Source: an uncultured Gammaproteobacteria bacterium (GTDB lineage: Bacteria; Pseudomonadota; Gammaproteobacteria; GCA-002705445; GCA-002716945). From it: a DNA stretch of 33,387 bases. The notes below the pieces were generated by a model. That model ran no database searches. It saw only the letters and a program-made list of their open reading frames with translations, and was not told the origin of the DNA. The DNA lies in assembly GCA_902559355.1 (NCBI GenBank), contig CACEHM010000002.1, forward strand, positions 235,246 through 268,632. Reading direction: 5' to 3'. The position numbers and the translations under genes are program-made. Positions 22,886-25,933 of this stretch are shown here, in pieces. Each line of letters opens with the position of its first letter. Within the stretch, counting starts at the first letter, position 1.

Positions 22886-24265
22886 ATGAAAAAAAATAAT
22901 AATAGGATTGAATCTGACTCATTAGGAAAAGTTAAAGTTCCGAAAAATGCCCTGTATGGTGCTCAAACACAAAGAGCGATAGATAACTTTAAAATTAGCG
23001 GTATTACTTTTGATCCTGCTTTTATTCAGGCTTTAGCTAGTCTAAAAAATGCATGCGCAAAAGCTAATCTAAAGTGTAAAACATTAACTAATTCAAAAGC
23101 ATCATGCATTTCAACAATTAGTAAGAAAATATCTAATAATCCTCTAGATTATATTGATCATTTTCCAATTGATATTTTTCAAACTGGTTCAGGAACTAGT
23201 ACGAATATGAACATGAATGAGGTTATCTCTGAGATTGCTAAAAGAGTACATAAAAAATCAATACATCCCAATGATGATGTTAACATGTCTCAAAGCTCAA
23301 ATGATGTAATTCCAACTACTATTAATATATCAACTTTGACAATGAGCAAAACGCTTTCAACTTCATTAAACTTTTTATGTGAATCAATAAACATGAAAGC
23401 TAAATCTTTATCACATATTATTAAATCTGGAAGAACTCATTTGATGGATGCTGTTCCAATATCTTTTGAACAAGAGCTTAATGTTTGGGAAGAGCTGGTT
23501 AGAGCATCTCAAGCTCAAGTGGACCTTTCTTGTGAAGAAATATCTTATTTACCTATAGGGGGAACGGCTATTGGAACTGGAATCAATGCTCCTAAGATGT
23601 TTGCAAAAAATGTTTGTAATGAATTAAACAAAATTTATAAAGAACTCAAAATTAAATTCAAACCTTTACTAGTACAAGGTGAAATGATGAGCTCACAAAA
23701 CCATGTTCTAACTTTAAGCTCTTCTTTAATAAGATATGCTTCTTCTCTAACTAAAATAGCGAATGATATTCGCTGGATGAATAGTGGACCTATTTCAGGA
23801 TTATCTGAAATATCTTTGAAACCACTCCAGCCTGGAAGCAGCATCATGCCAGGAAAGATTAATCCTGTAATATCTGAATCAATCCTGATGGCTGCTGCTC
23901 ATGTTAATGGAAATCACGTTACTATCATGCAGGCAACCAGCAGTGGAAGCTTTCAACTTAATACAATGTTACCTGTGATAGCACATAATATCATCGAGTC
24001 ACTATATCTAATGATTAATTGTACATTTAGTATGATTCAACTAATTGATAGTTTTAGTGTCAACGAGGACAAAGTTAAAGACAACCTATTTAGAAATCCT
24101 ATTATTGCTACAAAACTTAATCAGGTCATTGGATATGATTTAGCCTCTAAAATAGTCAAAGAGGCCTATAAAACAAATAGTCCTATTTTTGATATTGCAG
24201 AAAAAATGACGTCTTTAACTAAGTCCGAATTGATTAAGATACTAGATCCAAAAAAACTTATATAA
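22886..24265 (+). CDS. fumC: Class II fumarate hydratase
   Basis: Iron-free fumarase of the TCA cycle, interconverting fumarate and malate. The N-terminus is typical (RIESDSLGKVKVPKNALYGAQTQRA in part: ALYGAQTQRA). Other family regions are TGSGTSTNMNMNEVI, MSQSSNDVIPTT, the GRTHLMDAVPI segment, and the superfamily signature GSSIMPGKINPV at about 316-327. Length 459 residues is normal. The base after its stop is the A of the next ATG, so the three membrane genes that follow are probably translated from the same message. Fumarate also comes from PurB, encoded divergently, which makes the pairing of promoters sensible. Confidence 0.97.
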   Translation: MKKNNNRIESDSLGKVKVPKNALYGAQTQRAIDNFKISGITFDPAFIQALASLKNACAKANLKCKTLTNSKASCISTISKKISNNPLDYIDHFPIDIFQTGSGTSTNMNMNEVISEIAKRVHKKSIHPNDDVNMSQSSNDVIPTTINISTLTMSKTLSTSLNFLCESINMKAKSLSHIIKSGRTHLMDAVPISFEQELNVWEELVRASQAQVDLSCEEISYLPIGGTAIGTGINAPKMFAKNVCNELNKIYKELKIKFKPLLVQGEMMSSQNHVLTLSSSLIRYASSLTKIANDIRWMNSGPISGLSEISLKPLQPGSSIMPGKINPVISESILMAAAHVNGNHVTIMQATSSGSFQLNTMLPVIAHNIIESLYLMINCTFSMIQLIDSFSVNEDKVKDNLFRNPIIATKLNQVIGYDLASKIVKEAYKTNSPIFDIAEKMTSLTKSELIKILDPKKLI

Positions 24266-24913
24266 ATGAGTAAATCGAGCATAGATAATATTTTTATCTA
24301 CTGGGTTTATTTTATATCTCTTATTTTTTTAGTCTTTTATGCTTTGGAGTCTTTAGGATTTATATCTAGTATATTCCAGGAGGATATCAGCTATCTATCA
24401 TCCCTGATTACTTTTATTCTTGTCTTTTACTTATTTCAATGTGGTTATTATTTATATAAACTTAGAGATGCAGTATTTTTCGTTGAAACAAAAACTCATT
24501 ATGATGATAGCAACCCTTTTATTATAATCTTAAGCGAATTTCAAGTTGCAAATAATATTTTACAAGATAAGCCTAAAACACCACTACATGAAGAGTTTAA
24601 GCTCAAACTTTATGAATTTGTTGATAATGGTTTTTTTATTTCTGACCTATTATTGAAATTAGGAATTATTGGAACAGTAATAGGCTTTATAATCATGTTA
24701 AGTTCTCTATCGGCTATAGATGAAATGAACTTATCTAAAATGAATAATTTATTGCTCAGTATGAGCGCAGGAATGAAAGTTGCTTTATACACAACTCTAA
24801 CTGGATTAATTGGATCTATACTTTTATCAATTCAGTATAATTTTTTTGAAAGTAAAATTAATATGTTTATTAATCAAGTCATTAATATAGATAATTATGA
24901 GAAGAAAAAATAG
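24266..24913 (+). CDS. MotA/TolQ/ExbB-like inner-membrane proton channel protein
   Basis: A 215-residue protein with four likely membrane segments at about 8-33, 43-65, 130-148 and 170-193, and a cytoplasmic stretch of some 65 residues between the second and third. The last two segments carry the family pattern: LLLKLGIIGTVIGFIIML (128-144), then MSAGMKVALYTTLTGLIGS (166-184), with Thr137 and Thr176/177 where the ion path of ExbB/TolQ has polar residues. The four-segment layout is closer to MotA than to three-segment ExbB/TolQ, but the loop is shorter than in MotA. It starts with no gap after fumC and overlaps the next gene by 17 bases. No tol, ton or flagellar genes are near, so its partner is most likely the next gene. 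Function unknown. Confidence 0.7.
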   Translation: MSKSSIDNIFIYWVYFISLIFLVFYALESLGFISSIFQEDISYLSSLITFILVFYLFQCGYYLYKLRDAVFFVETKTHYDDSNPFIIILSEFQVANNILQDKPKTPLHEEFKLKLYEFVDNGFFISDLLLKLGIIGTVIGFIIMLSSLSAIDEMNLSKMNNLLLSMSAGMKVALYTTLTGLIGSILLSIQYNFFESKINMFINQVINIDNYEKKK

Positions 24914-25502
24914 AACTAGAACAGAACCTTTTACGGATTTATTATTTAATACTCTTCTAGGTTTCACATTTCTATTCTTTATCACAGTTCTTTTTATTAA
25001 TCCTATTTCTAAAATAGGCAATGTTAATATGAAGGCAGAATATATTGTAACTGTTGATTGGAAAGACAGCTTGCCAGATGACGTTGATATATGGGTACAA
25101 GATCCAAACGGAGAGACAGTTTCTTATTTAAAAAAAGATGCAGGTTGGCTACATCTTGATCGAGATGACCAAGGCATAGTAAATGATGTAGTAACAATTG
25201 ATGGTGAAGATATTATATATCCTATTAATAGAGAGGTTGTAACTCTAAGGGGCATTATTCCGGGTGAATATATTTTAAATTTATATTTATATGAACATAA
25301 AAGCGATCATCCAATCGATGTAAAAGTGATAATTGAAAAAGTAAACCCAACTTTGAAGTTAGTCTATGCAAATAATATTACATTAGAAAAAAAAGATTCT
25401 GAAGTCACAGTAACAAGATTCTTTTTAAATGCGCAAGGAGAGTATTCATCTGGCGATAACCAAAAGAAAATATTAACTCCGTACAACTTAAAAGGATTTT
25501 AA
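24897..25502 (+). CDS. ExbD/MotB-like single-pass protein with a periplasmic DVDxW domain
   Basis: A 201-residue protein with a basic cytoplasmic start (RRKNRTRTE), one membrane segment at about 14-34 (FTDLLFNTLLGFTFLFFIT) and a periplasmic domain of about 165 residues. Asp14 at the beginning of the membrane helix matches the essential protonatable Asp of ExbD/TolR/MotB. The outer domain contains DDVDIWVQDPNGE (61-73), HLDRDDQG (86-93) and LRGIIPGEYILNLYLYEH (117-134). This resembles beta-sandwich DUF2135/YfaP-type sequence and lacks the OmpA-like peptidoglycan motif of MotB. It overlaps the channel gene by 17 bases, and the next gene begins 2 bases after its stop. The stator-partner role is inference; the outer domain suggests a target other than TonB or peptidoglycan. 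Confidence 0.62.
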   Translation: MRRKNRTRTEPFTDLLFNTLLGFTFLFFITVLFINPISKIGNVNMKAEYIVTVDWKDSLPDDVDIWVQDPNGETVSYLKKDAGWLHLDRDDQGIVNDVVTIDGEDIIYPINREVVTLRGIIPGEYILNLYLYEHKSDHPIDVKVIIEKVNPTLKLVYANNITLEKKDSEVTVTRFFLNAQGEYSSGDNQKKILTPYNLKGF

Positions 25503-25504
25503 AA

Positions 25505-25933
25505 ATGATATTATATCTTTATTTAATAGTCCTTCTAATAATATATATCATTCTTATTGGCCATTTTATTAAAGGCAAGAAATATAAACATAAGATATTA
25601 ATAGTTTTGAGTATTTCAATATTATTTTCTTTTTTTTATGAAAGTATAAGAGAAAATGAGGGTTATGCTGTTACAGAGAATCTGCCCAAAAGTTTTTATG
25701 TACTAAATAGCTATGTATATGGAGACAACATCTTAATTTTAATCAAAGAAAACGATAATCAACCAAGGTTATACAAACTAAAAAAATCACTTAAACTAAA
25801 TAAATTTCTAAAAAAATACAAAGGACTAAAAAATAATGGTCAAGATGTAATGGTAAAAAAGAATAATTCAAAGAGTGAAGACTCATTGGGAATGTATATT
25901 GAAAGTGTACAAAAGAAGTTGCCCCTAAAGTAA
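25505..25933 (+). CDS. Unknown membrane protein, third gene of the channel module
   Basis: Not recognised. The 142-residue protein has two predicted membrane segments (about 2-20 and 30-45), joined by a short basic loop, and then a soluble part of about 95 residues. With the positive loop inside, both ends would face the periplasm. The soluble part starts with GYAVTENLPKSFYVLNSYVYG, in pieces GYAVTENLP and SFYVLNSYVYG, continues with DNILILIKENDNQPRLYKLKK (pattern: strand, acidic turn, PRLYKL) and ends in a lysine-rich tail. It begins 2 bases after the ExbD-like gene and ends 66 bases before acnA, so it belongs to the fumC-channel run. A regulatory or structural partner of the channel is a reasonable guess only. 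Confidence 0.55.
   Translation: MILYLYLIVLLIIYIILIGHFIKGKKYKHKILIVLSISILFSFFYESIRENEGYAVTENLPKSFYVLNSYVYGDNILILIKENDNQPRLYKLKKSLKLNKFLKKYKGLKNNGQDVMVKKNNSKSEDSLGMYIESVQKKLPLK

Follow-up and report, generated by a model that had tools for sequence, protein, structure and literature searches.

The stretch of DNA analysed here, called the window throughout, comprises 33,387 nucleotides. Directly downstream of fumC, which ends at position 24265, three genes follow each other on the forward strand. Gene 1 (24266..24913, 215 amino acids) encodes an A-subunit of the MotA/TolQ/ExbB type, the putative ring protein, gene 2 (24897..25502, 201 amino acids) the putative B-subunit, or axle, and gene 3 (25505..25933, 142 amino acids) a membrane protein with two helices. 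The run is as tight as originally predicted, with a 0-base gap between fumC and gene 1, a 17-base overlap of genes 1 and 2 (24897-24913) and a 2-base gap between genes 2 and 3 (25503-25504). Scanning the genomes of named species, relatives of protein 2 were found encoded in 343 stretches, from which 80 loci of Gammaproteobacteria and a few Alphaproteobacteria were kept. An open reading frame for protein 1 was present in 79 and one for protein 3 in 76 of these 80 loci, and the expected co-occurrence of all three genes is conserved; in three of the four loci missing protein 3 the contig stops inside or just past gene 2. The commonest spacing at both gene junctions was a 4-base overlap, ATGA overlaps being frequent, while other neighbours varied from clade to clade.

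Within the taxonomic family of the window the order fumC, genes 1 to 3, aconitase gene recurs, and protein 1 was detected in 21 of 25 genomes. For one of the remaining genomes (G005) absence of the module was discarded as uninformative, as the DNA across the locus consists of N (12 kb); the three others are 69-82% complete. A class-wide sample yielded the module in 40 of 369 genomes, and a phylum-wide sample added family f216 of another class, with genomes of 6-9 Mb, which we infer to be alphaproteobacterial from its gene neighbours and its genome size. The module occurs widely among gammaproteobacteria and in some alphaproteobacteria. One record titled Flavobacteriaceae (L066, PBJZ01000005.1) carries the locus of the window with a 94% identical protein 2; the name of this bin is probably wrong.

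Analyzing protein 1, the MotA/TolQ/ExbB pattern proposed for its last two membrane segments was recovered by the Pfam model MotA_ExbB (PF01618), which matched residues 132-204, the region of these two helices, with an E-value of 1.6e-10 and 41.3 bits (cut-off 22.9). Hydropathy peaks at residues 9-27, 41-59, 128-146 and 172-190 agree with the four membrane segments predicted, and the topology is therefore MotA-like, yet judged by profiles the nearest relatives are of the ExbB/TolQ kind: hhalign gave 88.9% for the ExbB of the same genome, 58.5% for E. coli TolQ, 8.2% for E. coli ExbB and 0.8% for E. coli MotA. Thr137 in the third membrane helix (24674..24676, forward strand) and Thr177 in the fourth (24794..24796, forward strand) stand out in an alignment of 39 family members (A6), in which T137 and T176/T177 are invariant. 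They were paired by hhalign with Thr148 and Thr181 of E. coli ExbB, Thr137 lying opposite the GTVWG motif of ExbB/TolQ. A PDB sequence search using the profiles of proteins 1 and 2 gave no match at the limits applied.

Protein 2 contains the single membrane helix claimed for it (hydropathy, residues 16-34; AlphaFold helix, residues 11-34), and its AlphaFold model (pLDDT 81.7) consists of one long helix followed by a beta-sandwich from residue 47 onward. No Pfam family matched the window protein, including DUF2135, TerD, ExbD (PF02472) and the OmpA domain. Searching the genome with PF02472 at E-values up to 10 returned two ExbDs and one weak other open reading frame, protein 2 not being among the matches, and the short helix gave no significant hhalign match to ExbD, TolR or MotB. 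What identifies the helix as ExbD-like is its motif and its position only: Asp14 (24936..24938, forward strand) lies in a PFTD motif at the place of ExbD Asp25 (PFID) and TolR Asp23 (PLLD). Protein 2 thereby shows what is expected of a B-subunit, a single N-terminal helix with a conserved Asp, encoded by a gene that adjoins the A-subunit gene, family f216 forming the exception. The conservation of Asp14 was upheld with this one qualification, as the residue is invariant in 50 aligned rows from Gamma- and Alphaproteobacteria (alignments A1/A4) and replaced by Val in the alphaproteobacterial clade f216. In this clade (L157-L166) the protein 2 homologues retain Asp10-Pro11 and the entire periplasmic domain and still have proteins 1 and 3 as partners, and the channel threonines of protein 1 are kept as well. 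Because Val takes the place of Asp14, the module must, in f216 at least, either operate in another way or be inactive as a motor.

The periplasmic domain of protein 2 (residues 46-198; 25032..25490, forward strand) had been linked to DUF2135, and this lead was confirmed by profile-profile comparison in hhalign (97.3%, E 2.6e-11, 74 columns) against a small set made up of E. coli YfaP and nine plasmid-encoded relatives. In the controls no score exceeded 4.4% for 60 column-shuffled profiles or 0.5% for the protein 1 and protein 3 profiles, and reversing the profile gave 2.9%. The Pfam model of DUF2135 (PF09906) found weak matches in 6 of 50 members of the protein 2 family (best 0.013) and none in the window protein. 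Searching with the protein 2 model, Foldseek on its own returned nothing significant, with E >0.03 for all rows. Aligning the Foldseek candidates with VIA-align placed four chains titled TerD among the top six (Z 10.5, 9.6, 9.2 and 8.6), together with a radial-spoke protein at rank 2; the first row below this top group had a Z of 6.0. Rank 4 was a complex with B. subtilis SCP2, which we take to be of the TerD family as well. Sequence homology of protein 2 to TerD was rejected (hhalign 0.4%), although the model superposes well. We read the periplasmic domain as a distant DUF2135 relative by sequence with a TerD-like predicted fold. Its invariant acidic positions are D62, D64, D88, D90, D91 and D97. 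The pair D62-x-D64 of the DxDxWV motif (25080..25088, forward strand) stands opposite DLDLHV of DUF2135 and the cluster D88-R-D90-D91 (25158..25169, forward strand) opposite its LDxD segment, and both are candidate metal ligands. The TerD entry 2kxt is titled calcium-binding, and judging from the invariant acidic positions protein 2 probably binds metal (Ca2+).

Protein 3 showed the two membrane segments described for it, at residues 1-19 and 30-48 by hydropathy and as helices 2-23 and 27-49 in the AlphaFold model (pLDDT 81.2), which ends in a small beta/alpha domain. This soluble C-terminal domain, probably periplasmic, holds the conserved residues of the protein. The window protein matched no Pfam family, and among its homologues weak matches alone were seen. 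Foldseek returned no match to the model at E 0.001 or better, and no structural match exceeded a Z of 7.9, the rows with Z of at least 6 covering the two helices only.

Comparing conservation within the family of the window, the median identity to the window protein was 69.6% for protein 2, on a par with aconitase (70.4%) and higher than for FumC (62.1%) and LysS (63.4%), and 38.9% and 35.5% for proteins 1 and 3. Protein 2 is the most constrained part of the module, which suggests that the axle domain touches something conserved.

Clues to its target came from one clade of loci, which are grouped together in the protein 2 tree and do not include the window. Upstream of gene 1 a YkuD L,D-transpeptidase is encoded in 13 loci and a DUF302 lipoprotein in 12 (extended cluster in L092, L094-L097, L099, L100, L103-L107 and L109), and downstream of the unit a protein composed of a VWA domain, a membrane helix and an FHA domain (10 loci: L084, L090, L094, L097, L099, L100, L104, L105, L107 and L108). 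Proteins with vWA domains have been put forward as outputs of other TolQ-like motors (PMC12204202), and DUF2135 relatives elsewhere in bacteria are also found within VIT-domain proteins. These clade-specific neighbours, VIT-domain relatives and vWA outputs are the sole leads on a target, and what they suggest is the cell wall or envelope.

The genome of the window encodes a single other MotA_ExbB protein, an ExbB on contig C5. Two ExbDs, a TonB-like protein and TonB-dependent receptors are encoded together with it in a stretch of 16 kb, the latter two names being read from translations of the open reading frames. The two ExbD genes are arranged in tandem and adjoin the TonB-like gene (L118:5384-6152), the first with PVID and the second with PLVN at the channel Asp; judged from these motifs, the Ton motor of this genome may use an Asp/Asn pair of ExbDs. 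Neither TolB_N nor the OmpA-family domain PF00691 was found in any of the 25 genomes of the family, which seems to be without Tol-Pal and OmpA-type peptidoglycan anchors. Beyond the module and the Ton set no further motor of the MotA_ExbB type was detected in these genomes, aside from two extra ExbB-like matches on a small contig of a 72%-complete bin (G021). The lineage is streamlined, with a genome of about 1 Mb, TonB receptors and marine records, and may in these respects be SAR86. The statement that the module is neither Ton, Tol-Pal nor flagellar was borne out on all three counts: an ExbB and two ExbDs of their own accompany the Ton genes at another place in the genome, the family has neither TolB nor OmpA-family domains, and the module has no flagellar context and no OmpA-like domain.

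A general replacement of Tol-Pal by the module was rejected as a rule. Outside the family of the window all 36 of 36 module-bearing genomes were also positive for TolB_N, as seen when the class survey tables were compared by eye, and a module that coexists with TolB in other members of the class does not substitute for Tol in general. At most, such a replacement may apply to the family of the window. A further unnamed motor, of two genes, was observed in gammaproteobacteria (L028:324-2136; L029:1168-2982). It consists of a relative of protein 1 of 337-340 amino acids, matching MotA_ExbB in L028, beside a partner of 256-260 amino acids that begins with an SFSDVALL helix and matched no family above cut-off.

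Taken together, we favour with reasonable though not strong confidence an ion-driven envelope motor of the 5:2 type, with a DUF2135/TerD-like axle and protein 3 as third subunit. Five copies of protein 1 would form a ring in the inner membrane around an axle of two copies of protein 2. Ions, most likely protons, would use Asp14 of protein 2 together with the threonines that are invariant in protein 1, and their passage would turn the ring against the axle. About ten residues above the membrane the axle would end in the DUF2135/TerD-like beta-sandwich with its clustered invariant acidic residues, a domain probably dependent on metal (Ca2+). Replacing the ExbD/TolR or OmpA-like domain, this sandwich would hand the motion to a partner near the inner membrane or the peptidoglycan. 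Protein 3 would belong to the complex as a third subunit of its own, with two helices placed next to the ring and a small domain in the periplasm that meets the axle domain, and the likeliest job of the whole would be upkeep of peptidoglycan or envelope. The family of protein 1, the conserved Asp and Thr residues, the domain relationship of protein 2 and the close association of the genes are read from the sequences themselves, and the motor part is well supported; stoichiometry, ion, rotation and placement of protein 3, like the target, the metal binding and the role of protein 3, are what we infer from them. The original prediction of a separate motor stands as far as the MotA/ExbB type and its separation from Ton, Tol-Pal and the flagellum are concerned, with Val in place of Asp14 in f216 as a qualification; a target recognised by the DVDxW domain, an accessory role of protein 3 and the 5:2 complex itself stay predictions.

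Instead of producing force, the module might be a channel or sensor gated by metal or stress: on detecting Ca2+ or damage, the TerD/DUF2135-like domain would control the flow of ions through the ring. An axle domain much more conserved than the ring, a TerD-like fold with acidic clusters, the membrane-bound FHA (phosphopeptide-binding) neighbour of one clade and the clade that lost Asp14 but kept the domain would all suit such a device. However, no close relative is known to act in this way and most loci are without a conserved regulator or enzyme partner, and we consider this reading unlikely. Similarly doubtful is a wider proposal, by which Proteobacteria have in this module one more motor of general use across the envelope. 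In the streamlined lineage lacking Tol-Pal and OmpA-type anchors it would have taken over, or always shared, the Tol-like holding or constricting of the outer membrane through its metal-dependent DUF2135/TerD-like axle head, and elsewhere it would work beside Tol-Pal.

A second ExbB-ExbD pair energising outer-membrane import, with protein 3 as a TonB-like transducer, appears quite improbable. Protein 1 is indeed of the ExbB/TolQ kind and a third membrane protein accompanies the pair, as TonB and TolA do. Nevertheless, with about 90 residues past its second helix and no long linker protein 3 is too short for the periplasm, and its conservation lies in the soluble domain. Furthermore, neither TonB nor a TonB-dependent receptor is among the conserved neighbours in the 80 kept loci, and a complete Ton set is already present in the genome, beside receptors. 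An anti-phage motor of the Zorya type, with protein 1 as a ZorA relative and an effector triggered when phage perturbs the envelope, is very unlikely: ZorA models are the best named-subfamily matches of protein 1 (NCBIfam 6.3e-05; PADLOC 8.5e-07), but they cover the shared core only and reach 22.2 of 100 bits, far under the curated NCBIfam cut-off, the long ZorA tail is lacking from protein 1 and the OmpA domain from protein 2, neither a nuclease or helicase nor ZorC/D or ZorE is a conserved neighbour across the 80 kept loci, within the family of the window the locus keeps its place between fumC and the aconitase gene, and the conservation of protein 2 is that of a housekeeping enzyme, unlike patchy defence genes.

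Returning to the ion-driven envelope motor, the module looks like a distinct branch of the 5:2 motor family, apparently not described before, and its probable site of action is the cell wall or envelope; it is distinct because the Ton set is separate and the family lacks TolB and OmpA-type domains. That such a conserved branch, with a third subunit of its own and an axle domain new to these motors, is retained in streamlined genomes, its protein 2 as conserved as an enzyme of central metabolism, implies that an energised process of the envelope has gone unrecognised. A lineage without Tol-Pal and OmpA-type anchors is moreover a natural test of how Gram-negative bacteria manage their outer membrane without them. 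Few 5:2 ion-driven motors have assigned jobs, namely the flagellum, Ton, Tol, Agl and Gld gliding, and Zorya. In a literature search that mostly did not extend to subscription papers, no description of this three-gene motor type and no mention of DUF2135, alone or together with ExbB, was found, nor any of SAR86 in connection with Tol-Pal. MotAB, ExbBD, TolQR, AglRQS and GldLM have been discussed together (PMC9389320). In the passages available of a further study the family is split into flagellar and generic transporters and unexplored domains appended to A-subunits are described, for example DUF3450 and DUF2341, DUF2135 not being named in those passages (PMC12505986).

Comparing the module with known systems, it resembles ExbB-ExbD-TonB and TolQ-TolR-TolA in its MotA_ExbB core, the threonines at the positions of ExbB T148/T181, the P-F-x-D at the start of the protein 2 helix, the adjacent genes and a third membrane protein in the operon. 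It differs from them by four membrane segments in protein 1 instead of the three of ExbB/TolQ, by a DUF2135/TerD-like beta-sandwich with no PF02472 match in place of an ExbD/TolR domain, by a protein 3 with two helices and no long linker, unlike TonB/TolA, and by its coexistence with TolB in other genomes and with a Ton set in the genome of the window. With the MotA-MotB stator it shares the four-segment A-subunit and the Asp in the helix of the B-subunit, whereas protein 1 has no hhalign match to E. coli MotA and both an OmpA-like domain and a flagellar context are lacking. With ZorA-ZorB, ZorA being the best named subfamily of protein 1, it has the shared core in common, and it departs from Zorya in the absence of ZorA tail, OmpA domain and effector neighbours and in its core-genome inheritance. 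DUF2135 proteins (E. coli YfaP) on the one hand and TerD on the other are similar to protein 2 in the DxDxxV...P.G motif and the beta-sandwich of its model, and no motor-type pore helix is known in YfaP or TerD. Finally, the vWA-partnered TolQ-like motors also combine a TolQ-like gene with an Asp-bearing pore-helix partner whose periplasmic domain is neither ExbD nor OmpA, and this partner has been proposed to turn directly in the ring (PMC12204202). In these motors vWA is part of the partner and the pore-helix pairs are mainly heterologous, while the module has a single DUF2135/TerD-like B-subunit and a two-helix third protein, with VWA on a separate VWA-FHA protein in some loci only.
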